Source of the DNA: Capitulum mitella
Lineage: Eukaryota > Arthropoda > Thecostraca > Pollicipedomorpha > Pollicipedidae
Assembly: GCA_030062745.1 (NCBI GenBank)
Contig: CP099849.1
Span: forward strand, 24,788,144 to 24,852,143
Direction of reading: 5' to 3'
Length of the DNA: 64,000 nt
Part shown: positions 1-36,474 of the stretch, one piece after another
Layout of the letters: each line of letters begins with the position of its first letter
Numbering within the stretch: the stretch's first letter is position 1
Notes under the pieces: model-generated
Seen by the model: only the letters and a program-made list of their open reading frames with translations
Databases searched by the model: none
Told to the model about the DNA's origin: nothing
Translations under genes and position numbers: made by a program

Positions 1-487
1 GTTATTCGTGACCTGACCTCAGGTCAATGGCTGGAAGTCACTGATACTTTGCCCATTGACGGTAACTAGATGTCTGCTTCACTCCACACTAAAAATGTTA
101 CGGAATATTCCGTCAATTTCCGAAAAAACGGCGATATGTCTTAAAAATGGGCTTGACCTTAGGTCAATGGCCCGGAAAATTCCAAAAAATCTGGGACAGC
201 AGATTTGTTGCATGTATCGCGATCACAAATCCCTGAAAGTATTATCGAGATATCTTGTTTTGCGAAAAAGTTAGAGGGCGCTAAACTTTTTTTGACATAG
301 GTCTGTTTGACCTGACATAGATCAGGTACCTGACCGGACGTGAGGTCAAAATTTTGAGACGAGATGTAAAATTGATGGGGCAAAAGGTACACAAAGTTTC
401 GTGACTCTGTGTTGGTTGGTTCTCTCGCAATCCTAGAAAAACCTCAGGGGGGCAGTCACCTGCCCCTCCCAGTCTGGGACGAGTTAA
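1..487. mobile_element. TTAA-flanked non-autonomous DNA transposon, family E, right part (E0)
   Basis: This is the right-hand part of a short repeat whose two full copies lie at 40216-41431 and 46072-47292; the left end lies outside the window. Shared landmarks are the opening segment with TGACCTCAGGTCA, the palindrome TTGACCTTAGGTCAA at 153-167 and a G-run/C-run terminal region ending at TTAA (484-487). No transposase is visible, so it is non-autonomous. The TTAA at 484 corresponds to intact empty TTAA sites at 9895, 19385 and 27388 in the other tandem units, so this copy inserted into unit 1 at TTAA. TTAA target choice is characteristic of the piggyBac superfamily; the assignment is inferred. 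Confidence 0.75.
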
Positions 488-539
488 CGAATCGAGCTAG
501 TACCCTAAAGGCAGCTGTCTCTATCGACCTACCCAAACA

Positions 540-600
540 TGGTCACCTACCAAGGCTATATAAACCGTATCTGCTGGTAGCCAACCACCAGTCTACACAG
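540..600 (+). promoter_or_regulatory. TATA/Inr-like core promoter, unit 1
   Basis: TATATAAA lies at 557-564, followed about 30 bases later by CCAGTCTACAC (from 588), which resembles the arthropod initiator TCAGTY. The whole block is conserved in all four units. It faces right, towards the open region ending at 1788. A GT splice-donor-like site follows near 627, so the first exon may be non-coding. Confidence 0.5.
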
Positions 601-1242
601 TGCATAGTGCTGGGGATTTGACATCAGTAAGACTGAGAGGATTTCGTTGTTTTTATTATCCGAAAAAGGATCACATATGTCAAAAGCACCTTTAATCTTT
701 CCTTAGTGGCGGATGCTTGTTACTAGTAGGTATGTTTCAAATAGCTGGCCTATGGAAGTGGAAATCTAGTGGGTTTGTGAAAAAGAGTCGATTAAGTGGT
801 TCATTTGGCATCCTGTTTAATGTAATTCGGTTTCGTGATTACTATCTGCTAGCATTTTTCAGAAGCATATTGTCATGTTCTTATCACCTTGTTTTACATA
901 CATAATTTGATCGCATTGGATCAGATTTACGGTGCAGGTGATACAACTAAAAATCGGGGTCACGGCGCTTGGATTCCGGTCAGTATTTGAATCACGGCTG
1001 TTTCTGAAATTCTGATCAAATGTAACTCACGGCCTCATTTTTAAAACCGATCGGGATCTAATATGATTTACCCAAAATACACGTGACTCTTGATCCGGAT
1101 CGACTCCAAATCAGAGTCAAGCACAAGTCCGCGAAAGTTCCAAGACGCTGCGTTTATTCGTTTGGTAAATATTTTAAAACCGTGCAGGGGACGTTAGACG
1201 AACCCCCAGTCAATGATGGGGTAATGCTAGTAAAAAAACATT

Positions 1243-1788
1243 GTGTGTGTATATGCACATCTTCAAGTAAACTCCCCTGTGTGCATTCATAGTTTTCAAT
1301 GCCACCTCACCGTACCAGATTCAAAGCTCGTAAATTCCATTACGGAGCATTTGCTGCGCTCTCTTCTGGCTCGTTCCATTTCGAGCTCCGAACTCAGTAT
1401 GGGGAAGTCTCCATCAGGGGACAAGACCTTTGTTGTTCAGGAACATTTGCCAGAGGATTCTGGTGAAACGAGCATCAAAGCATCCGAAGACCATGCGGAG
1501 ACCCACCCTGACCGAGTTCCAGAAGAATCGGTTGACTCTAAAGTGGATACAGGGCATAAAGAGGCCGACGAAAAATTATTGTTCCGTCAGTCTCATATGA
1601 CCGCTCCTTACGAATTTCCAAAGGCCATACGTTATCGAATCGACTACCGACCAGTCAAATCCTTGCTAAGAAAAACATCACGTACTATGGAAGCTCTTTT
1701 ATTCAACGTACACTTCGCATCTGAAACTGTACAGCAACAAGTAGAAGCCAATTTAGAAACATTTTCCCAATGGGTTGAACATCGGTAA
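1243..1788 (+). CDS. Conserved open region, convergent gene of unknown function, copy 1
   Basis: An open frame of 181 codons that ends at a stop at 1788 and faces the minus-strand gene. The conserved part runs from about 1310 and is polar and charged, with PEDSGETSIK, PEESVDSKVD and a basic FPKAIRYRIDYRPVKSLLRK stretch. The same frame stays open for about 160 codons in all four units. A second open stretch just upstream (1083-1292, containing LDEPPVNDGV) and another at 717-905 are also conserved and could be earlier exons, but I could not fix splice junctions that keep one frame. No signal peptide or known domain is seen. It could be a terminal exon or a decayed gene; I do not recognise it. 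Confidence 0.4.
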   Translation: MCVYAHLQVNSPVCIHSFQCHLTVPDSKLVNSITEHLLRSLLARSISSSELSMGKSPSGDKTFVVQEHLPEDSGETSIKASEDHAETHPDRVPEESVDSKVDTGHKEADEKLLFRQSHMTAPYEFPKAIRYRIDYRPVKSLLRKTSRTMEALLFNVHFASETVQQQVEANLETFSQWVEHR

Positions 1789-2070
1789 AACATGCTGACC
1801 AGCAAGTTACGTCCCAGACGACGTCAGGCGAAGTCATTCTTAGCGTGCTGGCAGAGGGATACATCGCTGATGACATCATATGGGGTCAGAATCAGAATCA
1901 GAATCAAAACGACCACAGACTGTCGTGAGCCTTTGTAGCGCACCAGGAATGGTGGGCCGCTGAGGTCACGTTGATGGTCACCAGCCAGTGGTGTTGGTCA
2001 CAAACCGGGAGGGGGGAGGGGGATGGTCCGCGGCAAGTCAGCAGATGACCTCTCTGCCGGAGATGACAGC

Positions 2071-3800
2071 TTAGTGCAGCGGTCTGTACAGCTGGCAGCA
2101 GCGTAGGCTCACCCACCGGGGGTTCTTCTCCTCGTTGTAAATCATACCGACGAGGACGTTGGCGTAGGGAGACAGGTCTTTGCACTGTGCGGGCCAGCTG
2201 TAACGGAAACAATGTAAGAGACGGCCCCGTCCATCGAGGCAAAACACGCAGTAATGGGTGACATCGGTATACTGCACAAGTCAGCTGTAATACGTGCAGT
2301 GATGGGGACTGCTCCACATATTGATGTGGGACATGTAGTAGTAGATGCTGCTGCACGACCATGAAGCTTCCTTGTGCTGCAGAAATGAAAGAAGCTCTTT
2401 ACTAGCATCTTGCGCTGCAGTGGCACTGGTATAAAAGGGGTTTAAAAAGTACTGTTAGCCGTGCGTCCTTACTGATCTCCTGGAACGAGGCAAATGCTGT
2501 AACGCATTTCAAGAAGATGGGATGTATAGGGCATGCAAAACCAGACTCAGGACTAAAGTTCCCTCCAGGGGTCAGGCAACTTAATGCCTCAATGGAAAAA
2601 CACGCTACTTCTCGGTGGAGACTGTAGTCCTGGATTACCCCACACCCGCTGGTAGAGCAATTCGAAGACGGAAAGCGACTCACGGGACGCCAGCGTCCAA
2701 GTAACCTGCGGCCATGTCCGGGGTGACGACGATATCCTCGCAGTGATCGGTAACGACAGCGCCGATGACAGGGCTGCAGGTCATGCGAGTCACGAACTCC
2801 ATCCAGTCGCCGTAGTTGGAAGCGAACGCGGACACCACGTGTCCGGCCGGACACAGCTGGAACGTGTCCTGCGACGGACGGGACCGAGGCGGTCAACGGG
2901 TGGTCAATGAATCGGCCGACTTTGTCCCTCTGGAAACAGATCTCGTCTCGGATCGTTTCGCCGCTTTTAATCTTGTTTCGCGTTTTTGGAACGCGAAGCG
3001 AAGGCGTACGCCTGTCAGTTTTTTTCGCAAAGCAAGGCCATGTTCCCAAGTTGATAGTATACCAAAGCAGCAAAGTAGCTGAACATAGGAGCAATACCTA
3101 CCTAGCAATACCTAGGAATACCTACAAAGCAGAAAAAAACAAACACTTACATCTGAGGAACGATGAACGTCGTGGTCTACCCCGGCCTCAAGATGAATGT
3201 CAGGATAACGCTGGCATTTAACGCTGTCCAGATCCTGAAATACAGAGCAAGTCGTCATCACCTGTTGCCTTTTAAACACGAAGCGTTTAAAACTGCACAA
3301 GTCAGCCTTAATCATTCACTTCCTTAATATCGCCCTAAACCGTCCCTTCACTGCCCAAAAACATGAGTAGTTTGTGGTGGCTTGTAGGTCCGAAAACACA
3401 AAAAGAGATGAAATATCTGCATCGCATCCAAAGGGTGCCAAACATTACATTATCCACACGAGGGGCCTGGATAGGTCGGCGTTCTGAAATACCTCGAAAC
3501 CGTTGTCATCGCCAAGACCGACCGCCATCATATCCGTATTTCCATCGCCATTGCAGTCGATCCTCCTCCTCTCACCAGGCTTCTCGCTGTTTTCTTGGCC
3601 GACGCTGATGGTAATATGATGTCCTGAAAATGTTGCACTGGTAATAAAATCAGTCATATAATTGTACCACGCGGAAATGATTCTCTCTCTATCTCTGGCA
3701 ATACGTTTAGCGTGGCTGTTTTCCTGAACGCATTTTTGCTCGCTAATTTTCCGAAGTTTGGTGCAGAAGTGCAGAGTGCACAATACATTTATCAACGTGC

Positions 3801-3857
<57 letters not shown>

Positions 3858-5737
3858 CATATATATCAAAAGGATTACACTTGCTATGCTATATTACACT
3901 TGCTACTTCTTTTTCTATAGTCCGGCGCGTAAAAACAGCACATCAGTATGGACACAATGCTCATCGTATCTAGCAAAATTTATGCATTCTTCCGCAAATC
4001 CATTTTACAACGCAGCTGATGTGGTCACACGCGGAGGTTGCAGCATTCAGTGCATATGAGTTATATCGGTTCGTTCCATGGCAACCCGTTAGTTATTGGA
4101 GAACGCCTATCGCATCCCGTCCCTTCGGTTTTCCCGGCGTAGATTCAAAACGGTAAATGCAACGACCTCGACTTTTTAACACGTCTGCCTGACCAGCACA
4201 GCTACGTTTTGACGAAAAACATTGTCCAGGATTTCATGCTTCCCTTCATTATAAAGTCAAAACTAGAATTTTAGATACCATTTCCAGGCACTGTGTCAGC
4301 TCGACATCTACACTTTCCTCAGGACAATGCGGTGCAAGTCAAACGTGATCTCAAGTAGGTTCGAAGTTGGTTATTTGTTTGCTTCGCGTTGCAACGATTC
4401 AGTGTTTTTTTTCAGGCAGGTCGGACTCTAGCACCCAAAAGTTTGAAGATACAAAGAAGCGAATAACTTGTTTTGCTTCATGCAACATCTATGACGGAAA
4501 CATGTAAAAGGCAATAGGCGATGTTTTGCAAACACTACTTTTAGTGACTACACAGAACTAATCTAATGTTGTATGTTGTTCGTTAGCGCTACTCCTGCAC
4601 TGTCAGTGAGGAACAGTGACATATTCAGAAATATGCCGCTGAAACAGTGGCATATTTCTGGCAAACATGCGTTTCACATTGGAATGCCGGTAAAAATGGA
4701 GGAGTGGAAAGTATGGGCAAACGATGTGCCGTGGGAGCAGAGGCGTAAGAACATCCAGAAAAGTGTGTGGGGAGATAGAGCTTTTTCCCCAAGGGACTAA
4801 TGTTAAATTTGCCAAAAAGTGGGTGGGGACCATGCCCCTTCCCGTTCCTGCGCCCATGCCCATGGAGAGCAGATACAAACCTCCGCAGCAATTGCCGATG
4901 AGCTCCCTCAGGTACTGAACAGACTCATCTAGACGATGTAGATGAGTTTGCGTCTGAAAAATACATTCCTGAAGTCAAAACAAAACACTGGGCAGCTTCT
5001 AGCAATGCGTTTATATTGAACCATTAGTCACACCAGTGAGTAGCCCGTTTTCTGTGAATCTGGTGTAGAAATGGCCACCAGGAAATTAGAGAACGATGTA
5101 GATGCTGTTAGACAGTATTTAAAAATTGTGTTTAGAAAGTGATTTACTATCACAAATATGAAATCTACGTCAAAATCGACTCGGTTCATTTACGCGCTTC
5201 GCTACAGCGGTTTGGCGTTTGTGTGCGCTCTTCATTACCTTCACGAGCTGCACTTATGCATGAATATTCAGAGAAAATAAATATTTGGTGAAATAATCAA
5301 ACAGGTTGCATACGTTGTATGCTGTGTGTAGTTGAAGCAGGCGTCTGCTTAACACGGCAGGTAAAGCAAGCAAAAAATACGGCGTAATAATATACCAAGG
5401 CAAAATAAGCAAAATGCAAAAGAAGACAGAAAAACACCGAGCCTTTTTTTGGAAAACTGGCGTCGAGAAAACGATGACACGAGAGTTCCCCTCAGACCGA
5501 GACATTTCAGAGGCCACCGTAGTAAGAGACGGATCATTTGTAGGGACAAACACAGAAACGAAATTTGCCTTGTCAACTCACCTCTGCTAAGTGAAGCTCT
5601 TCCTTAAGATGGTCGGTGTGGTTGGCGGCGACCGCATCGCTGATGTCGTGGATGACGTCGTGCAGGCAGCCGAGCTTGCTGGAGCCGACGGCGGCCTGCA
5701 GACCGCACAGCAGCAGGAGCAGAGACGTCGGCGACAT
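2071..5737 (-). CDS. Secreted protein with calcium-loop-like and dermatopontin-like modules, copy 1 (six exons)
   Basis: Exons, 5' to 3' on the minus strand: 5737-5582, 4953-4881, 3623-3493, 3234-3151, 2868-2684, 2197-2071. All introns are GT-AG, phases match (0,1,0,0,2), and the product is 251 residues. Exon 1 gives a signal peptide (MSPTSLLLLLCGLQAAVG) and an NHT glycosylation site. Exons 1-2 form a charged amphipathic helix (HLKEELHLAETQTHLHRL...), possibly a coiled coil. Exon 3 holds DCNGDGNTD, like EF-hand or FG-GAP calcium loops. The last two exons contain CPAGHVVSAF and NPRWVSLRCC, which resemble the CPxGxxV and (D)RxWxxxCC motifs of dermatopontin-type modules; this family call is tentative. 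I chose the ATG at 5737 because the one at 5755 lies at or before the expected transcription start set by the TATA box at 5777-5785. Confidence 0.8.
3806..3852. repeat. AT microsatellite in intron 2, unit 1
   Basis: Near-perfect (AT)n in intron 2 of the minus-strand gene. The equivalent site in other units differs: shorter (AT)n in unit 2 (about 13244-13280), (CT)n then (TA)n in unit 3 and interrupted AT/TG in unit 4. Confidence 0.95.
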
Positions 5738-5776
5738 GGCGAACAGGTCAGGCACCGCCGAGAGACGCGGCCGCCG

Positions 5777-5785
5777 CTTTTATAC
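5777..5785 (-). promoter_or_regulatory. TATA box of gene copy 1
   Basis: Minus strand GTATAAAAG, 40 bases upstream of the ATG at 5737. The expected start of transcription is about 5750-5755, giving a leader of under 20 bases. Conserved in all four units. Confidence 0.7.
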
Positions 5786-5980
5786 ACCCCTGCGGTCAGA
5801 GGGAATGCACGGCCGACAGTTTACATAGTCAGCAGGCGGCAGTTGCCATGGTCCCTTCAGATGGCAGTCCGTCCGGCCAGTTCCAGAATTCGGGCTGGCT
5901 GCACGAGATTCAAGCTCTGAACTGTGTCAGCGAGCCTGTTACATTCCTAAGCTTATCAGCGCCCGCTGTTGGTTTATGTA

Positions 5981-6023
5981 GATATATATTAACATATATA
6001 TATATATATATACAGATATATAT
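5981..6023. repeat. AT microsatellite upstream of gene copy 1
   Basis: Interrupted (TA)n about 200 bases upstream of the TATA box of the minus-strand gene. Similar runs lie at about 15460-15500 and 33131-33166; it is nearly lost in unit 3 (about 25165-25190). Confidence 0.9.
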
Positions 6024-6029
6024 CATTTT

Positions 6030-8480
6030 CCTCTGACACCGAAATAAAATGGACGGACACGTAGAAAATTGTGATGTTTTTTCACCGGCCGCGAATCTGC
6101 TTGCAACTCACCCAGTACCAAGAACTACCAAACCTTCAGCTTCACAAGCACGGGATTCATCTGAACCCCTTCACGCTACACTTTTCGTGCATTTTCGTAA
6201 TCTAATGTACGCTTCGTTATGTACTTACATAAGATAACCTAAGCTACCACCTGAACTAAGAACTTGACCGGGGCCACCCAGGGTCTCTTTTCAAAGTCCC
6301 TGTTATCTCATATCTCAGTCAAAGTTCTCTTTTACCAGGGCTGGTAAAAGAGGCCCTTGACAAGAAAAACTGAAGTGCTACTGTATTTTCAGAAATTCTT
6401 GGAAGAAGAAAGTTCGGTTTGTCCCAAGATTGTCCCAGCATGTGATCGAGAAGGTCGTTGTTCTGCCGTATCCAGAACAACCGGGGATTTGACTAAAGAT
6501 GACGATCAACTGCAGTTCTTAATGCGGTAACATGGGTTTATAAATCTGTTGACCCATCCGTTGGACACATATCGACGAAACGTCTGTGAATGTTATCCTG
6601 TAAACGAGGGAAAGTGTTAGCAAAATTCCGTGCCGGGACATCACACGGTGGCTGCCAAACCACATGGGAAGACCACTGGAAGTTCGGTTGGCCTTCGAAG
6701 CAGTGGCGAGGCCAGAGGAGTTGCAGAGGTCATTACGCACCCTGACATTTGCCTCCCCGTTTTAGGGGTGTATGTATATGGAAAAGCAAATGAGTAGTGT
6801 GCTTAGATGCAAACATGTCAATGAAATTCCACTTCGGGAAGCTCACAACCATTTATGCTCATTGCAAATCAGTATATGCAATGAGTATAATTTTGCATGT
6901 ACGTGCTCGTGTAGCAATGAGTAAAAACAAAAATTAAAACATATTATACTGGTACGGTAGACAGAGTCACCCCGTAATATCTTATCTGTTCTGCGACTGC
7001 ACGCCTCGCTCCCAAGCGTCCCACGGTCATTGCCTGAGAGGCACTCAAATGGGAGCGTGCTACGTTACTGGCTTCGCATATAAATATTGACAGAGTTCTG
7101 TATGTTGATGGTTGCAATTCGTGATCCTTGCATACCGGCGAATATAAAATATCGTCTGTAAAGACGAACCTTTATCTACGTTGATGCATTTTTGTTTGAT
7201 GACTTTCGGACTTAAGCTACCGAGTTAACTAAATTTTCAGAAGGTTCCCATTTAAACATATGCACTGTCCACGCATTTCCTTACGTCTTTTGCAGCAAAG
7301 CTCTTCGCAGCTATGGATGGCTTTCAGAGGTAGGCAAGGTCGATATTGATTATCAGCTGGGATATTATGTTTTTTTGCGAAACTTTTTAGCATCGAAGCG
7401 GTTTTAATATCGAAAACGATGGCAGGAAAACCTGAAGCAAACTTCTTCAAATATATCTTCATATGCTGTTTTTTCGGAGTCGAAGCGATACAATGAGAGA
7501 AAAAACATTATTTCACATTGCCTACATCGCTGACTACAAAAGCAACTAGGCTGCTAATTTGCTTTATGTTGAATGCCATAAACCATTTGTTAAGTTTGCA
7601 GTCGATGGGAACGAGTGCATCGACAATTATCTCATCGACATCGACTCGGTTTCGTCGATTTTTCTCATCAACCACGGATCGAATCGGCTAAGCATGCGTC
7701 CTCTTGGAACGATAATCCAATAGAAACCGCGTGATGTAGAATCAGGTTCCAACGCGTGCGGCACGGGCAACGCACAGGCGATGATGGTGTGAAAAAGCCG
7801 TCTCTAAGAGTTTCGAGGATTCATTGTCGCGCTGGCGATCCGGAAACTGCAACGACTTGAAAAAAGCACCATGGCGTGTCTCCATGTCCCGTCTTTCGTT
7901 GGTACCGGCAATCACACGTCTCTGGTCTACAGTTTGGACGCCATGCGACCTGGAAAAGGGTCATGCACTCAGATTAAGATTCAGATTCAGACATTGATCA
8001 AGGCCGTTGGCTACACGCGGTGGCTGTTCAGACCTTTTGCCGGAAATAAAACGGAGAGAATCAGCAAGAGGTCATGTCAGGTAAAATGGAAAGTCAACAG
8101 TCACACGGTCACGCACATTTGTACACACGTTGACCGGTCAGTCAGATGGACGGCGCAGGTGATTCGCCAGATGGCGGTTGAAACATGAAACTGGCAGCCC
8201 AAGAATCCCGGACGACAGTTCATTGCAAAGGGTGGCCGCCCGGCAGCAGAACCGCCTCTTACCCCTCCATGCGAGACCGTTGCATTTGAAGCCGATAATC
8301 CGATCACGTGTGTCTGTCGCGCGCTCGGCCAAGGTCGGTAATGAAGATGCCAGAGACTTGGGTTCACCCAGAACGCATGTTGTGTGTGAGACAAAGAGTA
8401 TGATAATTGCTAAGTTCTCCGCGCTGAGTCAGCCCAGGTTGTCATGCATATTCCAGACATGGTATTATTTCTTGTGGCCT
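6030..8480. other. Intergenic spacer of unit 1, no supported gene
   Basis: About 2.4 kb between the gene's upstream side and the reverse-transcriptase fragment. It contains short frames only. One stretch (about 6340-6530; 33421-33678 in unit 4) stays open longer in unit 4 but has a stop in units 1 and 2, so it is at best a relic. A short CAGATT-type hexamer run lies at 7970-7995 and is longer in units 2-4 (about 17490-17520, 25496-25525, 35110-35145). Confidence 0.6.
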
Positions 8481-8487
8481 AAGATGA

Positions 8488-8823
8488 CTAACTGCATAGT
8501 TCATTTCTTTTTGTTCGGATCCGAGAGAAGTTCTTTTGCGTTCCATAACCGCATAACGAAATGCGGTACCGGATTTGTGGGAGTACTAAGGCGTTGACCA
8601 GCGCAGAGGTAGAAATAGGGGGTACGTAGCTCCTCAGATGCGATAGACCATTTAGGACTCTAAAGCAGCGCCTAGTAAAGAGAGAGAAGTGAGAGTCCCA
8701 GCTGAGTGAACGTTCGAACGTTAGTCCTACTCTTTCGGCCTCAGGAACGGGCGATAGGTCAAAACCACGAAATTTTACTGTAAAAGATGGAATGCTGCGC
8801 AGTTTCTGTGGACTGCCAACCAT
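8488..8823 (-). pseudogene. Non-LTR retrotransposon reverse-transcriptase fragment, unit 1
   Basis: A minus-strand frame of 111 codons matches the end of the reverse-transcriptase domain of LINE-type elements: LGLTF-like opening, then SLSWDSHFSLF, RVLNGLSHLRSY and LVNALVLPQIRYRISLCGYG, corresponding to the usual LGV-(D/E)-LSW-H ... LGLL-RL ... LY-ALVLPHLDYC-WG pattern. The catalytic part (F/YADD) and endonuclease are absent, so this is a dead 5'-truncated piece. The same fragment occurs at the same place in all four units. Confidence 0.75.
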
Positions 8824-9258
8824 TTATCAAATTATTTTCAATATTTTACAGAAGACAAAGGTTTTTATCAATAGCAATTGCACCGACTTTTAACCCTTTC
8901 ATTTGTACGCATAAAAAAACTAAAAATGTGGCGGCATTTTATTGGGGTTTGGTTGCAATCCATCTTTTCATGACATCCTGCAAATAAAACGCTCAGCCCA
9001 CACCTAGCCCACGATCAGTTAAAATTAGCAGGCTCTTTAGTTGTGCCGAGATCATGATGTGTGTTCGCCCTCGATGTCATGAGTATGTCATCCATCCAGC
9101 CTTCGGGGAATGCAGTGGTTCACATGCTAGAACAAAAAATATGATTAATTAGTTTGTACGTTAGTAACAAATTACTTTTCAAAGGAACATAAACAATATA
9201 TCCTTCGAAAGACGTGCCATGACGAACTGAAAATTGATGTACTTGACATCGAAACCCT

Positions 9259-9355
<97 letters not shown>
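9259..9355. repeat. AT/AC compound microsatellite, unit 1
   Basis: (TA)n, then (AC)n at 9285-9310, then (TA)n. The unit 2 and unit 3 counterparts are pure AT. Confidence 0.95.
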
Positions 9356-9357
<2 letters not shown>

Positions 9358-9700
9358 TATATTGCTGTTTTTTACAACATCATATAGAACCCAGCATTAC
9401 AAAATGCATGGAAAATGTCGAATTTTATGCTACAGTGTACATGCGTATGAAGCATTGGTACGTGCATATCACATGTAATATATATGTATATAAATGTACT
9501 ACATGGTTAATTGCATACGGTTAGGTACACGCTATTTTCTAGGTACCTCACTGAAGTAATAGGCGGAAATGTAGCATATTATTAGTTTGTACCTAAAATT
9601 AGGACATAACCGCGGCAGTTATAGCTTCGGGTGTCCGTACGTAGCAATTTTAGTTACTGACTAGTTCATTTTAATGCTGTGTGGTGGATTCTGATGTGAT

Positions 9701-9739
9701 GGAAAATAGTGGTGGATATTCATCCACCACTATTTTTCC
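9701..9739. repeat. Perfect hairpin (inverted repeat) near unit junction
   Basis: Arms of 17 bases (GGAAAATAGTGGTGGAT and its complement, with one extra T in the right arm) around a four-base loop. Versions in unit 2 (19200-19238) and unit 3 (27203-27240) carry one mismatch each. Function unknown. Confidence 0.85.
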
Positions 9740-9958
9740 AATTACGGCGCAATAACCACAATAATTATCTATACTTTTTGTTATACACAGCAGTCAATAT
9801 ATTCCAGTGCCCAGAGGCTATCTGGACAAACGAAATGGAGCCAGTTATATGACGGCTGTTAAATAACACAAATTCACGGGATAAGTTAACGCATCGAGCC
9901 AGTAGCTTAAGGGCAGCTGTCCCTATCGATCTACCCAAACATGGTCACCTAACAAGGC

Positions 9959-9966
9959 TATTTAAA
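9959..9966 (+). promoter_or_regulatory. TATA-like box, unit 2 plus-strand promoter
   Basis: Here the box reads TATTTAAA instead of TATATAAA; the initiator-like CCAGTCTACAC follows at the same distance. Confidence 0.45.
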
Positions 9967-10703
9967 CCGTGTCTGCTGGTAGCCAACCACCAGTCTACAC
10001 AGTGCACAGTGCTAAGGATTTGACATCAGTAGGACTGAGAGGATTTCATTGCTTTTATTATACGAAAAACGATCACATATCTCAAAAGCACGTTTAATCT
10101 TTCCTTAGTGGCAGATGCTTGGTATTAGTAAGTATGTTTCAAATAGCTGGCATATGGATGTTTAAATGTAGTGGGGTTGTGAAAAAGAGTCGATTAAGTG
10201 GCTCATTTGGCATCCTGTTTAATGTAATTCGGTCTCGTGATTACTATCTGCTAGCATTTTTCAGAAGCATATTGCCATGTTTTAATCACCTTGTTTTACA
10301 TACATAATTTGACCGCATTGAATGAGATTGACGGTGCAGGTGATACGAGTAAAAATCGGGTCACGGCGCTTGGACTCCGATTAGTATTTGAATCATGACT
10401 GTTTGTGAAATTCTGATCCGAGTCAAATGTAATTCAGGGCCGCATTTTTTAAACCGATCGGGATCTAACATGATTTACCCAAAATACATGTGACTCTTGA
10501 TCCGGATCGACTCCAAATCAGAGTCAAGCACAAGTCCGCGAAAGTTCCAAGACACTGCGTTTATTCGTTTGGTAGATATTTTAAAAGCGTGCGGGCGACG
10601 TTAGACGAGCCCCCAGTCAATGATGGGGTAATGCTAGTGAAAACATTGTGTGTGTATATGCACATCTTCATGTAAACTCCCCTGTGTGCATTCATAGTTT
10701 TCA

Positions 10704-15463: not shown

Positions 15464-15501
<38 letters not shown>

Positions 15502-24954: not shown

Positions 24955-24963
24955 CTTTTATAC
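24955..24963 (-). promoter_or_regulatory. TATA box of gene copy 3
   Basis: GTATAAAAG is retained although the gene body is broken, so transcripts may still be made. Confidence 0.65.
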
Positions 24964-26009
24964 ACCCTTGCGCGCAGAGGGAATGCACTGCCGACAGTTT
25001 ACATAGTCAGCGGGCGGCAGTTGCCATGGTCCCTTCAGATGGCAGTCCGTCCGGCCAGTTCCAGAATTCGGGCTGGCTGCAGGAGATTCAAGCTCTGGAC
25101 TGTGTCAGCGAGGCTGCTACATTCGTGAGCTTATCAGCGCCCGCTCTCGGTTTATGTAGATTTTTATTAACATATAGATATATGTATATAATTTTAACTT
25201 AATTTCCGTGGGCTTGATTACCTCTTACATCGAAATAAAATGGACGGACACGTAGAAAATTGTGATATTTTTTTTCACCGGCTGCAAATCTGCTTGCAAC
25301 TCGCCCAGTACCAGCAAAAAACCGAACCTTCAAAAGCACGGGACTCATCTGAGTCCTCTCCACGTACACTTTCCATACATTTTCGTAATATATTGTACGT
25401 TTACACAAGGTGACCTAAGCTACCATCTGAACTAACAACTCTCCTGGACCCGGGGCCACCTATCGCCACGCGACCTGGAAAAGGGTCATGCACTCAGATT
25501 CAGATTCAGATTCAGATTCAGACTCAGGCATTTATCAAGGCCGTTGGCTACAGACCTTTTGTCGGAAATAAAACGGAGAGAATCAGCAAGAGGTCATGTC
25601 AGGTAAAATGAAAAGTCAACAGTCACACGATCACGCACATTTGTACACACGCTGACCGGTCAGTCAGATGGACGGCGCAGGTGATTCGCCAGATGGCGGT
25701 TGAAACACGAAACTGGCAGCCCAAGAATCCCGGACGACAGTTCATTGGAAAGGGCGGCCTCCCGGCAGCAGAACCGCCTCTTACCCCTCCATGCGAGAAC
25801 GTTGCATTTGAAGCCGATAATCCGATCACGTGTGTCTGTCGCGCGCTCGGCCAAGGTCGGTAATGAAGATGCCAGAGACTTGGGTTCACCCAGAACGCGT
25901 GTTGTGTGTGAGACAAAGAGTATGATAATTGCTAAGTTCTCCGCGCTGAGTCAGCCCAGGTTGTCATGCATATTCCAGACATGGTATTATTTCTTGTGGC
26001 CTAAGATGA

Positions 26010-26345
26010 CTAACTGCATAGTTCATTTCTTTTTGTTCGGATCCGAGAGAAGTTCTTTTGCGTTCCATAACCGCATAACGAAATGCGGTACCGGATTTGT
26101 GGGAGTACTAAGGCGTTGACCAGCGCAGAGGTAGAAATAGGGGGTACGTAGCTCCTCAGATGCGATAGACCATTTAGGACTCTGAAGCAGCGCCTAGTAA
26201 AGAGAGAGAAGTGAGAGTCCCAGCTGAGTGAACGTTCGAACGTTAGTCCTAATCTTTCGGCCTCAGGTACAGGCGATAGGTCAAAACCACGAAATTTTAC
26301 TGTAAAAGATGGAATGCTGCTCAGTTTCTGTGGACTGCCAACCAT
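26010..26345 (-). pseudogene. Non-LTR reverse-transcriptase fragment, unit 3
   Basis: Third copy of the relic. In this segment unit 3 is nearer to unit 1 (8178-8600) than to unit 2. Confidence 0.75.
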
Positions 26346-26777
26346 TTATCAAATTAATTTCAATATTTTACAGAAGATATGCGTTTTTATCAATAGCAAT
26401 TGTACCGACGTTCAGCCCTTTCATTTATACTCATAAAAAAACTAAAAAGATGGCGGCATCTTATTGAGGTTTGGTTACAGTTCATCTTTTCATGACATGC
26501 TGGAAATCAAACGCTCAGCCCACACCTAGCCCACGATCAGTTAAAATTAGCAGGCTTTTTAGTTGTGACGAGATCATGATGTGTGTTCGCCCTCGATGTC
26601 ATGAGCATGTCATCCATCCAGCCTTCGGGGAATGCAGTGGTTCACATGCTAGAACAAAAAATATGATTAATTAGTTTGAACATTAGTAACAAATTACTTT
26701 TCAAAGGAACATAATCAATACATCCCTCGAAATACGCGCCATGACGAACTGAAAATTGATGTACTTTGCATCGAAAC

Positions 26778-26779
<2 letters not shown>

Positions 26780-26861
<82 letters not shown>
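26780..26861. repeat. AT microsatellite, unit 3
   Basis: Pure (TA)n of about 80 bases at the same site as in units 1 and 2. Confidence 0.95.
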
Positions 26862-26863
<2 letters not shown>

Positions 26864-27460
26864 TATATTGCTGTTTTTACATCATATAGAACCCAGCATT
26901 ACAAAATGCATGGAAAATGTCGAATTTTATGCTACAGTGTACATGCGTATGAAGCATTGGTACGTGCATATCACATGTAATATATATGTATATAAATGTA
27001 CTACATGGTTAATTGCATACGGTTAGGTACACGCTATTTTCTAGGTACCTCACTGAAGTAATAGGCGGAAATGTAGCATATTATTAGTTTGTACCTAAAA
27101 TTAGGACATAACCGCGGCAATCATAGCTTCGGGTGTCCGTACGTAGCAGATTTAGTTACTGACTAGTTCATTTTAATGCTGTGTGGTGGATGCTGATGTG
27201 ATGGAAAATAGTGGTGGATATCCATCAACCACTATTTTCCCAATTACGGCGCAATAACCACAACAATTATCTATACTTTTTGTTATACACAACAGTCAAT
27301 ATAATCCAGTGCTCAGAGGCAATCTGGGTAAAAGAAATGGAGCCAGTTATATGACGGCTGTTAAATGACACAAATTCACGTGATAAGTTAACGAATCGAG
27401 CCAGTACCCTACGGGCAGCTGTCCCTATCGATCTATCCAAACAAGGTCACCTAACAAGGC

Positions 27461-27468
27461 TATATAAA
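27461..27468 (+). promoter_or_regulatory. TATA box, unit 4 plus-strand promoter
   Basis: TATATAAA with the conserved initiator-like block downstream. Confidence 0.48.
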
Positions 27469-28077
27469 CCGTATCTGCTGGTAGCCAACCACCAGTCTAC
27501 ACAGTGCATAGTGTTGGGGATTTGACATCAGTAGGACTGAGAGGATTTCATTGCTTTTATTATTCGAAGAAGGATCACATATGTCAAAAGCACCTTTAAT
27601 CTTTCTTTAGTGGCAGATGCTTGGTACTAATAAGTATGTTTCAAATATCTGGCTTATGGAAGTTTAAATGTAGTGGGGTTGTGAAAAAGAGTCGATTAAG
27701 TGGCTCATTTTGCATCCTGTTTAATGTAATTCGGTCTCGTGATTACTATCTGCTAGCATTTTTCAGAAGCATAGTGTCATGTTTTTATCACCTTGTTTTA
27801 CATACATAATTTGACCGCATTGAATGAGAGTGACGGTGCAGGTGATACGAGTCAAAATCGGGGTCACGGCGGTTTTTGAAACCGATCGAGATCTAATCTG
27901 ATTTGCCCAAAATACATGTGACTCTTGATCCGGATCGACTCCAAATCAGAGTCAAGCACAAGTCCGCGAAAGTTCCAAGACGCTGCGTTTATTCGTTGGG
28001 TAGATATTTTAAAAGCGTGCGGGCGACGTTAGACGAACCCCCAGTCAATGATGGGGTAATGCTAGTAAAAAAACATT

Positions 28078-28581
28078 GTGTGTGTATATGCACATCTTCA
28101 TGTGAACTCCCCTGTGTGCATTCATAGTTTTCAATGCCACCTCACAGTACCAGATTCAAAGCTCGTAAATTCCATTATGGAGCATTTGCTGCGCTCTCTT
28201 CTGGCTAGTTCCATTTCCAGCTCCGAACTCAGTATGGTGAAGTCTCCATCAGAGGAGAATACCTTTGTTGTTCAGGAACATTTGCCAGAAGATTCTGGTG
28301 AAACGAGCATCAAAGCATCCGAAGACCATGCGGAGACCCACCCTGACCGAGTTCCAGAAGAATCGGTTGACTCTAAAGTGGATACAGGGCGTAAAGAGGC
28401 CGACGAAAAATTACTGTTCCGTCAGTCTCATATGACCGCTCCTTACCAATTTCCAAAGACCATACGGTATCGAATCGACCATCGACCAGTCAGATCCTTG
28501 CTAAGAAAAACATCACGTGCTATGGAACATCTTTTATTCAACGTACACTTTGCATCTGGAACTGTAGAACAACAAACATAA
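28078..28581 (+). CDS. Conserved open region, convergent gene of unknown function, copy 4
   Basis: Unit 4 version, 167 codons, with the early stop after EQQT shared with copy 3. It keeps PEDSGETSIK, PEESVDSKVD and the basic RYRIDHRPVRSLLRK stretch. No domain recognised. Confidence 0.38.
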   Translation: MCVYAHLHVNSPVCIHSFQCHLTVPDSKLVNSIMEHLLRSLLASSISSSELSMVKSPSEENTFVVQEHLPEDSGETSIKASEDHAETHPDRVPEESVDSKVDTGRKEADEKLLFRQSHMTAPYQFPKTIRYRIDHRPVRSLLRKTSRAMEHLLFNVHFASGTVEQQT

Positions 28582-28909
28582 GCCAATTTCGAAACATTTT
28601 TCCATTGGGTTGAACATTGGTAAAACATGTTGGCAGCAAGTTACGTCCCAGACGACGTCAGGCAAAGTCATTCTTAGCGTGCTGGCAGATGGATACATCG
28701 CTGATGACACCATGTGGGGTCAGAATCAGAATCAGAATCAGAATCAGAACGACCACAGGCTGTCGTGAGCCTTTCTAGCGCACCAGGAATGGTGGGCCGC
28801 TGAGGTCACGTTGATGGTCACCAGCCAGTGGTGTTGGTCACAAACCGGGAGGGGGAGGGGGATCGTCCGCGGCAGGTCAGCAGATGACCCCTCCGCCGGA
28901 GATGACAGT

Positions 28910-31900
28910 TTAGTGCAGCGGTCTGTGCAGCCGGCAGCAGCGTAGGCTCACCCACCGGGGGTTCTTCTCCTCGTTGTAAATCATGCCGACGAGGACGTTG
29001 ATGTAGGGAGACGGGTCTTTGCACTGTGCGGGCCAGCTGTAACGGAAACGATGTCAGAGACGGCCCCGTCCATCGAGGCAAAACACGCAGTAATGGGTGA
29101 CATCGGTATACTGCACAAGTCAGCTGTAATACGTGCAGTGATGGGGACTGCTCCACATATTGATGTGGAACATGTAGTAGCAGATACTGCTGCACGATCA
29201 TGAAGCTTCCTTGTGCTGCAGAAATGAAAGAAGCTCTTTACTAGCATCTTGCGCTATAGTGGGACTGGTAGAAAAGGGGTTTAAAAAAAGTACTGTTAGC
29301 CGTGCGTTCTTACTGATCTCCTAGAACAAGGTAAATGTTGTAACACATTTCAAGAAGATGGGATGTATAGGGCATGCAAAACCAAGCTCAGGACTAGAGT
29401 TTCCTCCAGGGGTCAGGCAACTTAATCCCTCAATGGAAAAACACGCCACTTCTCCGTGGAGACTGTAGTCCTGGATTACCCCACACACCCTGATAGAGCA
29501 ATTCGAAGATGGAAAGCGACTCACGGGACGTCAGCTTCCAAGTAACCTGCGGCCATGTCCGGGGTGACGACGATATCCTCGCAGTGATTGGTAACGACAG
29601 CGCCGATGACAGGGCTGCAGGTCACGCGAGTCACGTTCTCCACATAGTCGCCGTAGTTGGAAGCGAACGCGGACACCACGTGTCCGGCCGGACACAGCTG
29701 GAACGTGTCCTGTGACGGACGGGACCGAGGCGGTCAACGGGTGGTCAATGAATCGGCCGACTTTCTCCCCCTGGAAACAGATCTCGTCTCGGATCGTTTC
29801 AGCGCTTTTAATCTTGTTTGCATTTTTGGAACGTGAAGCCAAGACGTACGTTTATCGTTTTTTTTCGCAAAGCAAGGCCATGTTCCCATGTTAATAGTAT
29901 ACCAAAACAGCAAAGTAGCTGAACTTGGAAGCAATAACTATCAAAGCAGAATAATAAAAAAACAAACACTTACATCTGAGGAACGATGAACGTCGTGGTC
30001 TACCCCGGCCTCAAGATGAATGTCAGGATAATGCTGGCATTTAACGCTGTCCAGATCCTGAAATACAGAGCAAGTCGTCATCACCTGTTGCCTTTTTAAA
30101 CACGAAGCGTTTAAAAGTGCACAAGTCAGCCTTAATCATTCACTTCCTTAATATCGCCCTAAAACGTCCCTTCGCTGCCCAAATTACAAAAGTAGTTTGT
30201 GGTGGCTTGTAGGTCCGAAAACACAAAAAGAGATAAAATATCTGCATCCCGTCCAAAGGATGCCAAACATTACATTATCCACACGGGGGCATGGATAGGT
30301 CGGCGTTCTGATATACCTGGAAACCGTCGGCAGCGCTATCGCCAAGACCGACCACCATCATATCTTTTTTTCCATCGCCATTGCAGTCGATCCTCCTCCT
30401 CTCACCAGGCTTGTCGCTGTCTTCTTGCTTTTGGTCCACGCGGATGGTAGTTCGCTTTCCTGAAAATGTTGCACTGATAATAAAATCAGCCATATAGTTG
30501 ATACCACGCGGAAATGACGCTTTCTCTATCTATGGCAATACCTTTAGCGTGGCGGTTTAACTGAACGCATTTTCGCTCACTAATTTTCCGAAGTTTGGTG
30601 CAGAAGTGCAGAGTGCACAATATATTTATCAACGTCTATATGTATGTATATATATATGCATATATATATATGTGTATATATATGCATATATATCAAAAGC
30701 ATTACACTTGCTACTCTCTTCCTATATCTCGACGCCTAAAAACAGTACATCGGTATAAACACGATGCTCATCGTATCTAGCAAAATTTATGCATTATTTC
30801 GCAAATCCGTTGTACAACGCAGCTGATGTGGTCATACGCGGAAGTTGCAACATCAAGTGCACATCAGTTATATCGGTTCGTTCCATGGCAACCCGCTAGT
30901 TATTGGGGGACGCCTATCGCATCGCGTCCCTTCGTTTTTCCCGGCGTAGATTCGAAACGGCAAATCCAACGACCTCGACTTTTTAACACGTTAACCTGAC
31001 CAGCACAGCTACGTTTTGACGAAAAACATTGTCCAGGGTTTCATGCTACCATTCATTATAACGTCAAAACTAGAATTTTAGATACCGTTTCCAGGCACTG
31101 TTTCAGTTCGACATCTGCGCTTTCCTGAGGACATGGATTTCAATAAATTAATTACAAATGGCTCAGAGCTCAAGTATAATGCATCGCAAGTCAAAGGCGA
31201 TCTCAAGTAAGTTCAAAGTTGGTTATTTGTTTGCTTCGCGCTGCAACGATTCAGTGTTTTTTTCAGGCAGGTCGGACTCTGGAGCCCAGAAGTTTGAAGA
31301 TACAAAGAAGCAAATAACTTGTTTTGTTTCATGCAACATTCTATGACGGAAACATGTAAAAGGCAATGGGCGATATTTTGCAAACACTACTTTAAGTGGC
31401 AAAACAGAACTTATCTAATGTTGTACGTTAACGCTATTCCTGCACTGTCAGTGAGAAACAGTGGCATATTCAGAAATATGCCACTGAAACAGTGGCATAT
31501 TTCCGTCAGTTAAGAGGTTCTAATTTATGATCATATCAGTAACATAATCGGTGGTCGTGTGGTCAACGAATGGGTCACGGGTAGCGTCTCTGTGTGACGG
31601 GCTTGACGGGCATCCATTCCATTGGGGTTCGAATGGATGACATATGACCATTAGTTCTTGAGACAGACAGTGAGAATGCCACTGGGTAATGGGCGGCAAA
31701 ATATCCAAGTCTCTGCGGGGATTAAATCGACATTGTTCAAACCAGACATCGAAAAATTTGATCACCTCATAAAGGTATTCGTCCCAAACATAAACGCAAA
31801 CATGCGTTTCACATTGGAATGCGTGTAAAAATGCAGGAGCGGAAAGTATGAGCAAACGATGTGCCGTGGGAGCAGGCACGTAGGAACATCCAGAAAAGTG

Positions 31901-32876
31901 TGTGGGGAGATAGAGCTTTTTCCCCAAGGGACTAATGCTAAATTTCCCAAAAAGTGGGTGGGGGCCATGCCCCTTCCTGTTCCTGCGCCCATGCCCGTGG
32001 AGAGCAGATACAAACCTCCGCAGCAATTGCCGATGAGCTCCCTCAAGTACTGAACAGACTCATCTAGCCGATGTAGATGAGTTTGCGTCTGAAAAATACA
32101 TTCCTGAAGTCAAAACAAAACACTGGGCAGCTTCTAGCAATGCGTTTATATTGAACCATTAGTCACACCAGTGAGTAGCCCGTTTTCTGTGAATCTGGTG
32201 TGGAAATGGCCACCAGGAAATTAGAGAGCGATGTAGATGCTGTTAGACAGTATTTAAAAATTGTGTTTAGAAAGTGATTTACTATCACAAATATGAAACC
32301 TACGTCAAAATCGACTCGGTTCATTTACGCGCTTTGCTACAGCGGTTTGGCGTTTGTGTGCGCTCTTCATTACCTTCACGAGCTGCACTTATGCATGAAG
32401 ATAAAGCCAGAGAAAATAAATATTCGGTGAAATAATCAAACAGGTTGCATACGTTGTATGTTGTGTGTTGTTGAAGCAGGCGTCTGCTTAACAGGGCAGT
32501 TAAAGCAAGCCGAAAATACGGCGTAATAATATATCAATGCAGAATAACGAAAATGCAAAAGAAGACAGAAAACTACCGAGGCTTTTTTTGGAAAACTGGC
32601 GTCGAGAAAACGATGACACGAGAGTTCCCCTCAGACCGAGACGTTTCAGAGGCCACCGTAGTAAGAGACGTATCATTTGTAGGGACAAACACAGAAGCGA
32701 ACTTTACGTTGTCAACTCACCTCTGCTAAGTGAAGCTCTTCCTTGAGATGGTCGGTGTGGTTGGCGGCGACCGCATCGCTGATGTCGTGGATGACGTCGT
32801 GCAGGCAGCCGAGCTTGCTGGAGCCGACGGCGGCCTGCAGACCGCACAGCAGCAGGAGCAGAGACGTCGGCGACAT
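28910..32876 (-). CDS. Secreted calcium-loop/dermatopontin-like protein, copy 4 (six exons)
   Basis: Exons on the minus strand: 32876-32721, 32088-32016, 30459-30317, 30057-29974, 29709-29525, 29036-28910. All introns are GT-AG with the phases of copy 1; product 255 residues. The calcium-loop exon is DCNGDGKKD and carries the four-residue insertion SAAD before its end (GDSAADGFQ). The dermatopontin-like part keeps CPAGHVVSAF and NPRWVSLRCC. In exon 5, MEFVTRM of copy 1 is VENVTRV, which creates an NVT glycosylation site not found in copies 1-3. Exons 1 and 2 encode the same residues as copies 1 and 2. No defect seen. Confidence 0.8.
31504..31797 (-). other. Extra intron-2 block, unit 4
   Basis: Counterpart of the unit 3 block. 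The minus-strand frame that is open in unit 3 contains a stop here (AAC TAA), while another frame is open to 31520. Acceptor-like ATCCCCGCAG is kept. Probably intronic sequence deleted from units 1 and 2, or a decayed exon. Confidence 0.35.
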
Positions 32877-32915
32877 GGCGAGCAGGTCAGGCACCGCCGA
32901 GAGACGCGGCCGCCG

Positions 32916-32924
32916 CTTTTATAC
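32916..32924 (-). promoter_or_regulatory. TATA box of gene copy 4
   Basis: GTATAAAAG, 40 bases upstream of the ATG at 32876. Confidence 0.7.
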
Positions 32925-33129
32925 ACCCTTGCACGCAGAGGGCATGCACGGCCGACAGTTTACATAGTCAGCAGGCGGCAGTTGCCATGGTCCCTTCAGA
33001 TGGCAGTCCATCCGGCCAGTTCCAGAAATCGGGCTGGCTGCAGGAGATTCAGGCTCTGGACTGTGTCAGGGAGCCCGTTACATTCGTGAGCTTATCAGCG
33101 CCCGCTGTCAGTTTATGTAGATTTATATT

Positions 33130-33172
<43 letters not shown>

Positions 33173-33234
33173 AACTTAGTTTCCGTGGGCTTCAGTACCT
33201 CTTACACCGAAATAAAATGGACGGACACGTAGAA

Positions 33235-35630
33235 AATTGTGATTTTTTTTTCACCGGCTGCAAATCTGCTTGCGACTCGCCCAGTACCAGCAAAAAACCG
33301 AACCTTCAAAAGCACGGGATTCATCTGAACCCTCTTCACGCTACACTTTCCGTACATTTTCGTAATATATTGTACGCTTACACAAGGTAACCTAAGCTAC
33401 CATCTGAACTAAGAACTCTCTTGGACGGGGGCCACCCAGGGCCTCTTTTCAAAGTCTTTTTTATCTCATATCTCAGTCAAAGTCCTCTTTTACCACGGCT
33501 GGTAAAAGAGGCCTTTGATAAGAAAAACTGGAGTGCTACTGCATTTTCTGAAATTCTTGGAAGAAGAAAGATAGGATTTGTCCCAGCATCTGATCGAGAA
33601 GGTCGTTGTTCTGCCGTATCCAGAACAACCGGGGATTTGACTAAAGATGACGATCAACTGCAGTTTTTAATGCGGTGACATGGGTTTATAAATCTGTTTA
33701 CCCATCCGTTGGACACATATCGATGAAACGTCTGCAAATGTTATCCCGTAAACGAGGGAGAGTGTTCGCAAAATTCCGTGCCGGGACATCACACGGTGGC
33801 TGCCAAACCACATGGGAAGACCACTGGAAGTTCGTGGCCAACAGTGGCGAGGCCAGAGGAGTTGCAGAGGTGCATTATGCACCCTGGCATTTGCCTCCCT
33901 GTTTTAGGGGTGTATGTATATGAAAAAGCAAATGAGTAGTGTGCTTAGATGCAAACATGTCAATGAAATTCCACTTCGGGAAGTTCACAACCATTTATGT
34001 TCATTGCAAATCAGTGCATGCAATGAGTATAATTTTGCATGTAGGTGCACGTGTAGCAATGAGTAAAAGCAAAAAATAAAACAAATTATACTGGTACGGT
34101 AGACAGAGTCACCCCGTAACATCTTATCTGTTCTGCGACTGCAAGCCTCGCTGCAAAGCGTCCCACGGTCATTGCCTGAGAGGCACTCAAATGGGAGCGT
34201 GCTACGTTACTGGCTTCGCGTATAAATATTGACAGAGCTCTGTAAGTTGGTGGTTGCAATTCGTGATCACTGCATACCGGCGAATATAAAATAACGTCTG
34301 TAAGGGCGAACCTTTATCTACCTTGATGCAGTTTTGCTTGATGACTTTCGGACTTAAACTACCGAGTTAAGTAAATTTTCAGAAGGTTCTCATTTAAACA
34401 TATGCGCTGTCCACGCCTTTCCTTACGTCTTCTGCAGCAAAGCCCCTCGCAGCTGTGGACGGCTTTCAGAGGTAAGCAAGGTCGTTAGTGATTACCAGCT
34501 GGGAGATCATATTTTTTTGCTTAAATTCTTAGCATCGAAGCAGTTTTAATATCGAAAACGATGGCACGAAAACCTGAAGCAGACTTCTTCAATTTCACCT
34601 TCATGTGCTGTTTTTTCGGAGTCGAAGCGATACAATGACAGGAAAACATTCTTTTACATTGCTTACATCGCTAACTACAAAAAACAACTAGGCTGCTGAT
34701 TTGCTTGATGCTGAATGTCATAAGCCATTTGTTACGTTTGCAGTCGATGGGAGTGAGTGCATCGACAATTATCTCATCGACATCGCCTCAGTTTCGCCGA
34801 TTTTTCTCATCAGCCACGGATCGAATCGGCTCAGAATGCGTCCTCTTGGGACGATAATCCAATAGAAACCGCGTGATGTAGAATCAGGTTCCAACGCGTG
34901 CGGCATGGGCAACGCACAGGCGATGATGATGTGAAAAAAGCTGTCTCTAAGAGTTTCGATGATTCGGTGCCGCGCTGGCGATCCGGAAACTGCAACGACT
35001 TGAAAAGAGCACCACAGTGTGGCTCCATGCCCCGTCTTTCGTTGGTACCTGCAGTCAAACTTCTCTGGTCTACAGTTTGGACGCCACGCGACCTGGAAAA
35101 GGGTCATGCACTCAGATTCAAATTCAGATTCAGATTCAGATTCAGACATTGATCAAGGCCGTTGGCTACACGCGGTGGCTGTTCAGACCTTTCGTCGGAA
35201 ATAAAACGAAGGGAATCAGCAAAAGGTCAAGTCAGGTAAAATGAAAAGTCAACAGTCACACGGTCACGCACATTTGTACACGCGCTGACCGGTCAGTCAG
35301 GTGGACAGCGCAGGTGATTCGCCAGATGGCGGTTGAAACATGAAACTGGCAGCCCCAAAATCTCCGACGACAGTTCATTGGAAAGGGTGGCCGCCCGGCA
35401 GCAGAACCGCCTCTTACCCCTCCATGCGAAACCGTTGCATTCGAAGCCGATAATCCGGTCACGTGAGTCTGTCGCGCGCTCGGCCAAGGTCGGTAATGAA
35501 GATGCCAGAGACTAGGGTTCACGCAGAAGGCGTGTTGTATTTGAGACAAATAGTATGATAATTACTAAGTTCTGCGCGCTGAGTCAGCCCAGGTTGTTAT
35601 GCATATTCGAAACATGGTATTATTTTTTGG
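33235..35630. other. Intergenic spacer of unit 4, no supported gene
   Basis: Collinear with the spacers of units 1 and 2. A frame at 33421-33678 (LVKEAFDKKNWSATAFSEILG...) is open only here. The CAGATT hexamer run is at 35110-35145. Confidence 0.55.
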
Positions 35631-35642
35631 GGCCAAAGATGA

Positions 35643-35900
35643 CTAACTGCATAGTTCATATTTTTTCCGAGACAAATTCTTTTGCATTCCATAACCGCAT
35701 AACGAAATGCTGTACCGGATTTGTGGGAGTATTAAGGCGTTGACCAGCGCAGAGGTAGAAATAGGGGGTACGTAGCTCCTCAGATGCGATAGACCATTTA
35801 GGACTCTAAAGCAGCGTCTAGTAAAGAGAGAGACGTGAGAGTCCCAGCTGAGTGAGCGTTCGAACGTTAGTCCTAATCTTTTGCACTCAGGAACGGGCAA
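35643..35900 (-). pseudogene. Non-LTR reverse-transcriptase fragment, unit 4
   Basis: Fourth copy, shorter open frame (85 codons) owing to small deletions at both ends; keeps SLSWDSHVSLF and LVNALILPQIRY. Confidence 0.72.
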
Positions 35901-36474
35901 TAGGTCAAAACCACGAAATTTTGCTGTAAAAGATGGAATGCTGCGCAGTTTGTGTGGACCGCCAACCGTTTATCAATTTCATTTTAATATTTTACAGAAG
36001 ATATACGTTTTTATCAATACCAATTGCACCGACGTTTAGCCTTTTTATTTGTACCTACAAAAAACTAAAAAGATGGCGGTATTTTATTGGGGTTTGGTTA
36101 CAATCCATCTTTTCATGACATCCTGCAAATCAAACGCTCAGCCCACACCTAGCCCAAGATCAGTTAAAATTAGCAGCCTCTTTAGTTGTGCTGAGATCAT
36201 GTGTGTTTGCCCTCGATGTCTTGAGCACGTCACCCATCCAGCCTTCGGGGAATGCAGTGGTTCATATGCTAGAACAAAAACTATGATTAATTAGTTTGTA
36301 TGTTAGTAACAAATTGCTTTTCAAAGGAACATAAACAATATATCCCTCGAAAGACGCGCCATGACGAACTGAAAATTGATGTGTTTTACATGGGAACCTG
36401 ATGAATGGTTTAGAAACTTATGTAAACAAATCCGATTTCTTTGTTTAATGCTGTATTTCCCGTAGGGATTAAGA

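Follow-up and report, generated by a model that had tools for sequence, protein, structure and literature searches.

Tandem units and the gene they carry

The window analysed here is a stretch of 64,000 nucleotides from the barnacle Capitulum mitella (contig CP099849.1; C11:24788144-24852143), and it contains, between about 484 and 36398, an array of four head-to-tail units, each with a copy of a minus-strand gene predicted to encode a secreted, cysteine-rich protein. The units were recognised from long direct matches when the window was compared with itself, and in a single alignment of all four the six pairs differed at 4.8-7.3% of aligned bases, i.e., 92.7-95.2% identity. This four-unit match pattern is beyond chance, and it bears out an earlier reading of the letters alone (the sequence-only reading), which had proposed four direct units of 8.0-9.5 kb. 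About 1.65 kb common to units 1, 2 and 4 is absent from unit 3, and unit 4 ends near the position at which the other units have a TA microsatellite. About 290 bp of intron 2 is present in units 3 and 4 (unit 4, ~31512-31795) and not in units 1 and 2, by insertion or deletion.

Six exons of the minus-strand gene were found in every unit (Table 1). In units 1, 2 and 4 all introns are GT-AG, the frames are open, and the proteins are 251, 250 and 255 amino acids long, respectively. In unit 3 the last part of exon 1 and its donor are lost to a 51-bp deletion, and CAA stands in place of CAG at the acceptor of exon 3. The expectation that the same spliced gene would occur in all units is borne out, and with unit 3 broken the number of intact genes is three, not four. 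A TATAAAA box starts 47 bases ahead of the ATG in all four units, and a poly(A)-type hexamer is present 366-371 bases past the stop codon in units 1, 2 and 4. The exon insertions and deletions (indels) among the intact copies are 3, 6 and 6 bases long and all keep the frame; among intron indels, 2/8, 2/15 and 1/15 are multiples of three (pairs 1-2, 1-4 and 2-4).

The signal-peptide-like start of the protein and the NHT sequon in exon 1 were assigned by eye only. Beyond this start come 11 cysteines, none of which varies among the three intact copies. The N-terminal part is identical among the three intact proteins, and the C-terminal parts vary, with 90-95% identity to copy 1. Nothing was found in the window by Rfam or ARAGORN.

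Homogenisation between units

The longest identical run between units 2 and 4 is 871 bp, compared with about 97 bp expected, and that between units 1 and 2 is 463 bp, compared with about 127 bp expected. Direct tandem copies and identical tracts well beyond the expectation from mean divergence, the two marks of a concertedly evolving array, are thus both present. The 871-bp tract takes in the TATA box, the whole of exon 1 and intron 1, and exon 2 up to its 20th base, indicating recent homogenisation between units 2 and 4. The version shared by these two units differs from unit 1 at 1/156 positions in exon 1 versus 27/628 in intron 1. Presumably, the array itself was made through repeated unequal exchange.

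Divergence of exons and introns

Exon-versus-intron comparisons (with bases 3780-3880 masked) and gene-wide ratios of replacement to silent divergence (dN/dS) were obtained from units 1, 2 and 4, the broken unit 3 being excluded; values below are for pairs 1-2, 1-4 and 2-4 in that order. The introns differed at 145/2809, 188/2757 and 176/2813 positions (5.2, 6.8 and 6.3%). Exons 1 and 2 together differed at 1, 3 and 2 of 229 positions (p ~2e-4 each against introns), so these exons are constrained and far better conserved than the introns. Exons 4-6 differed at 11/393, 16/396 and 16/393 positions (p 0.044, 0.037 and 0.089).

The fastest-diverging exon is exon 3, with 19/131 differences in pair 1-4 and again in pair 2-4 (p 0.0026 and 0.0009 against introns), about twice the intron divergence between units 1/2 and unit 4. 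In pair 1-4 its 150-bp flanks had 10/149 and 13/150 differences. Codon changes in exon 3 amounted to six replacement and one silent in pair 1-2 (43 codons) and to 12 and one in each of pairs 1-4 and 2-4 (41 codons), with dN of 0.065, 0.164 and 0.165. For the whole gene, dN/dS was 0.64, 1.35-1.39 and 1.12-1.20, varying with the codon alignment and based on few silent changes.

Paralogues and search for known families

The genome (477.0 Mb, 16 contigs) was searched with exon 5 at E ≤ 0.001, and matches were found in at least six places (seven candidates, all scored), namely the four units and two other chromosomes, C13 (53% identical, E 7.6e-10) and C14 (47% identical, E 2.0e-5). In the C13 copy exons 3, 4, 5 and 6 were located with the same splice phases as in the array; its exon 3 is 131 nt, the same as in unit 1, and its exon 5 is 182 versus 185 nt. 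In the C14 copy exons 1, 3, 4, 5 and 6 were located, of which exon 4, the start of exon 5, and exon 6 agree with the array, and exon 6 is 127 nt, equal to unit 1. The five cysteines encoded by exons 3-5 do not vary across five aligned rows, and the exon-6 cysteines are also present in both paralogues. Overall, the two paralogues are 46-47% identical to the array gene, and the several exon edges and phases that they share with it show that this is a genuine gene.

The protein fits no family in Pfam, NCBIfam or PDB, Pfam having been searched with hmmscan using the whole protein at E ≤ 5 and C-terminal pieces and family members at E ≤ 10, and PDB by sequence and by profile. The models for VMO-I (vitelline membrane outer layer protein I) and Dermatopontin were likewise not matched in these Pfam searches of whole protein, pieces and members. 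The best value in PHROGs was E 0.15, and relatives were absent from viral contigs and prokaryote genomes at E ≤ 1e-3. Several hits were rejected as chance: KaiA, the best PDB match (E 0.013, 0.0026 and 0.0067), fell to 0.51 once the profile took in the paralogues (C-terminal part only); BROMI_N (E 0.015) stayed under its Pfam cut-off; TnpW (E 0.073) came from the plus frame; and Cu-oxidase_2 (0.074) and SVWC (0.11) were each hit by one of five members. The gene is not named in the papers found, which are not searchable by sequence, so it is not claimed to be unpublished. These results agree with the proposal of a secreted-protein gene without match to known families; judged from its signal-peptide-like start and its cysteines, the product represents a putatively secreted, cysteine-rich family absent from current libraries.

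The plus-strand open frame

A convergent, conserved plus-strand open region with its own core promoter had also been proposed for each unit. That it is a second gene, amplified along with the first, is highly unlikely. In its favour, the longest open runs of the frame in units 1 to 4 are 184, 164, 170 and 170 codons, and of the 15 unit-1 frames with at least 100 codons it has the largest minimum; its TATA-like box is TATATAAA in units 1, 3 and 4, altered to TATTTAAA in unit 2. Against it, dN (0.053-0.081) and dS (0.055-0.091) are similar across the six pairs (dN/dS 0.68-1.29), third codon positions show no excess of changes, and divergence is about equal to that of introns; in addition, unit 2 has a 1-base deletion causing a frameshift on the 5' side, and units 3 and 4 have earlier stops. 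The frame had no Pfam match over the cut-off, and no relative was found at E ≤ 1 in loci L005-L018 or in 36400-64000 of the window (L001-L004, being the units themselves, were excluded). A Pfam search of the six frames of 5738-9880 and one frame of 484-2071 also returned nothing at E ≤ 0.1. Since the poly(A)-type hexamer of the minus-strand gene lies 366-371 bases past its stop, that gene's 3' untranslated region may include part of this stretch. The frame is not accepted as a gene at present; it behaves as neutrally evolving DNA.

Left edge and flanking sequence

The sequence-only reading had further suggested that a transposon hides the left edge and that there may be more units. The element is real. 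Its right part matches 46803-47292 (91%) and 40943-41431 (74%), and its other part, left of the window, is 92% like 46064-46802. Two full relatives begin with TTAACCCGCG and finish with an imperfect inverse at TTAA. The element looks like a non-autonomous piggyBac-type miniature inverted-repeat transposable element (MITE), a type with TTAA ends and inverted termini: it shares with these the TTAA at its right end and at the ends of the two relatives, imperfect CCC.../...GGG terminal inverted repeats, a length of ~1.2 kb and several copies. It differs in that no transposase domain was found by Pfam in six frames of 36400-64000, where both full relatives lie, and in that its left end is TCAA. Its flanks are ~375 bp apart in unit coordinates, with the unit sequence between them gone and no single empty site, so that, given also the TCAA end, this is no simple insertion.

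Further gene units were not seen in the exon-5 search or in the 20 kb left of the window, where, among the matches listed, the proteins of units 1 and 2 reached no exon at a value below E 0.29. What lies there is an old remnant, whose fragments run in unit order and contain no gene exon, indicating an older unit that lost its gene body. Sequence at 36247-36802 in the right flank also resembles parts of this remnant (L007 5715-9269), with 67-73% identity and in some cases in inverted orientation. A weak exon-6-like frame ending in ALRCCEIY (L010 4603-4704, minus strand, E 0.47), 10-20 kb left of the window, is possibly a far relative.

In the right flank, 36400-64000, a six-frame search gave no Pfam domain at E ≤ 0.01, and the region would be gene-poor or unrecognisable. 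Elements of a second 1.2-kb family, flanked by TTAA and with TTAACCCTATTCCCGG ends, occur at 44113-45335, 52653-53866 and 60712-61931 (89-91% alike within the window) and at L008 7970-9187 (95%). At 38202-38548 a 180-bp unit is repeated about two times, each closing in a TAACC/CCTAA run (five-base repeats at 38281-38366 and 38446-38537). This repeat is presumably of the arthropod telomere type; a telomere array was absent from the five readable contig ends checked, the sixth being all N.

Table 1. Position of the array units, gene parts and bordering features (window coordinates unless a locus is named)
Feature	Position	Strand	Remarks
Unit 1	484..9877		self-match and mutual alignment; start 476/484, ~9.4 kb
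Unit 2	9878..19376		self-match and mutual alignment; ~9.5 kb
Unit 3	19377..27379		self-match and mutual alignment; ~8.0 kb
Unit 4	27380..36398 (end ~)		self-match and mutual alignment; ~9.0 kb
TATAAAA box, unit 1	5778..5784	-	
Exon 1, unit 1	5582..5737	-	signal-peptide-like start, NHT sequon; ends in phase 0 at donor GTGAGT; homologue in every unit
Exon 2, unit 1	4881..4953	-	
Exon 3, unit 1	3493..3623	-	fast-diverging; 131 nt (143 nt in unit 4)
Exon 4, unit 1	3151..3234	-	
Exon 5, unit 1	2684..2868	-	match on two other chromosomes
Exon 6, unit 1	2071..2197	-	includes stop codon; match near both paralogues
Unit 2 gene, intact	11474..15209	-	exons 15054-15209, 14349-14421, 12937-13067, 12595-12678, 12120-12304, 11474-11597
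Unit 3 gene, broken	20900..24915	-	exon-1 donor deleted, exon-3 acceptor lost
Unit 4 gene, intact	28910..32876	-	exons 32721-32876, 32016-32088, 30317-30459, 29974-30057, 29525-29709, 28910-29036
Identical tract, 871 bp	14402..15272 (unit 2) = 32069-32939 (unit 4)		
Plus-strand open frame	1234..1788	+	proposed convergent gene; evolves like non-coding DNA
piggyBac-like MITE, right part	1..487		ends at TTAA 484-487; remainder L007 9268-10000, left of window
Unit-like fragments	L007 5796-5934 (68%), 6777-7113 (70%)		match unit-1 9105-9249, 9310-9658
Unit-like fragments	L007 7328-7731 (68%), 8603-8648 (83%), 9108-9269 (88%)		match unit-1 733-1124, 1133-1178, 9346-9510

Interpretation of the array

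The explanation favoured as a whole, with a probability of about 0.5, is a tandem array of a secreted-protein gene in which exon 3 is perhaps diversifying alongside conversion of the promoter and exon 1. The signal peptide would take the protein out of the cell, the N-terminal part, which does not differ between the intact copies, would serve secretion and perhaps assembly, and the cysteine-framed C-terminal part would bind or build something extracellular; exon 3 would be the surface that may diversify, while conversion would hold the promoter and exon 1 alike. The product is most likely an extracellular binding or structural protein of which the exon-3 segment varies fastest. The odds of a role in recognition, whether immune, reproductive or surface-binding, over a purely structural one are put somewhat short of even, and the sole point in its favour is the pattern of exon-3 divergence. 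The narrower version, a taxon-restricted family whose promoter and first exon are kept alike among array copies by conversion and whose 131-143-nt exon has been diversified as a recognition segment framed by invariant cysteines, is improbable in all its parts together.

Several results weigh against this explanation. In pair 1-2 exon 3 is no faster than the introns (9/131, p 0.42), a single split underlies both pair 1-4 and pair 2-4, and the tests numbered nine. The dS of exon 3 is 0.107, 0.109 and 0.156, so its dN/dS is just ~0.6, 1.5 and 1.05 (pairs 1-2, 1-4 and 2-4); with dS high beside dN, the divergence of exon 3 appears to be raised in general. Sliding windows at least as diverged as exon 3, the exon-3 windows counted, numbered 11/848 in pair 1-4 and 10/856 in pair 2-4, several of them beside the TA microsatellite; in the other pairs they numbered 216/921 (1-2), 37/738 (1-3), 23/747 (2-3) and 349/717 (3-4). 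Because units 2 and 4 are identical across exon 1 and intron 1, the three exon-1 pairs are in effect one comparison. Both paralogues are incomplete as located: exons 1-2 were not found in the C13 copy nor exon 2 in the C14 copy, where in addition the exon-5 donor was not seen ahead of a stop and exon 3 (102 nt) starts in a different phase in this model. An amphipathic helix at the N terminus (residues 24-73) was also unconvincing, being reached by 163/5000 shuffles at 102.9 degrees and 1778/5000 at 100.

Among the other explanations, an assembly artefact is very improbable, and the array and the gene are almost certainly real. It is true that a single assembly underlies all four units, but the 4.8-7.3% differences, the large unit-specific indels and a closest pair that switches along the unit mean that two haplotypes are insufficient for four versions, and an older remnant of an array unit is present on the left side. 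Copy-number drift has a much better claim and falls only somewhat short of even odds: the array would have no adaptive meaning, exons 1-2 being constrained and the rest relaxed, with one copy decaying. The broken gene of unit 3 fits this, as do an exon-3 dS that equals dN or nearly so, equally or more diverged windows by the microsatellite at ~3780-3880, and the whole-gene dN/dS with its few silent changes; exon 3 may look fast from the nearby TA microsatellite or as an old tract escaping conversion. However, exon 3 stays above the introns even with 3780-3880 masked, its flanks are less diverged than the exon itself in pair 1-4, and every exon indel in the intact copies preserves the frame.

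Selection for dosage, by which copies would be kept since more of one secreted product is useful, is rather unlikely. It would suit the TATA box identical in four units, the identical N termini of the three intact proteins and the homogenised tract spanning promoter and exon 1, but one of the four copies is broken and the C-terminal parts of the proteins differ. The suggestion that amplification reflects diversification gains modest support from exon 3 exceeding the introns in two of the three pairs and from the constraint on exons 1-2. It is weakened by the raised silent divergence of exon 3, and for this reason adaptive diversification of that exon is regarded as possible, at somewhat less than an even chance. 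The locus adds a putatively secreted protein family missing from current libraries, with a testable gene model from an animal genome assembled to chromosome scale. Should the signal in exon 3 hold, the array would show in compact form how homogenisation and diversification act on neighbouring exons, and it may be speculated that a lineage-specific secreted protein of a barnacle has a part in settlement, immunity or reproduction.

Comparison with known systems

A resemblance to VMO-I and dermatopontin-like proteins was noticed by eye: a motif recurs in which a cysteine is followed by a hydrophobic stretch closed by G or A and, ~20-30 residues on, by another cysteine, and a CC pair lies close to the C terminus. 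The difference is that neither gave a Pfam or PDB match at E ≤ 10. Snake-venom phospholipases are tandem secreted genes whose exons evolve faster than their introns. Bivalve C1q-domain genes (compare PMC6835236) are a further example of tandem, fast-evolving secreted genes with gene conversion. While no sequence relation to either kind of array is shown, the family here is unnamed and its acceleration is modest and limited to one exon, the likeness extends to a putatively secreted, cysteine-rich product, tandem arrangement, homogenised tracts, a decaying copy and a coding segment that diverges above the introns.

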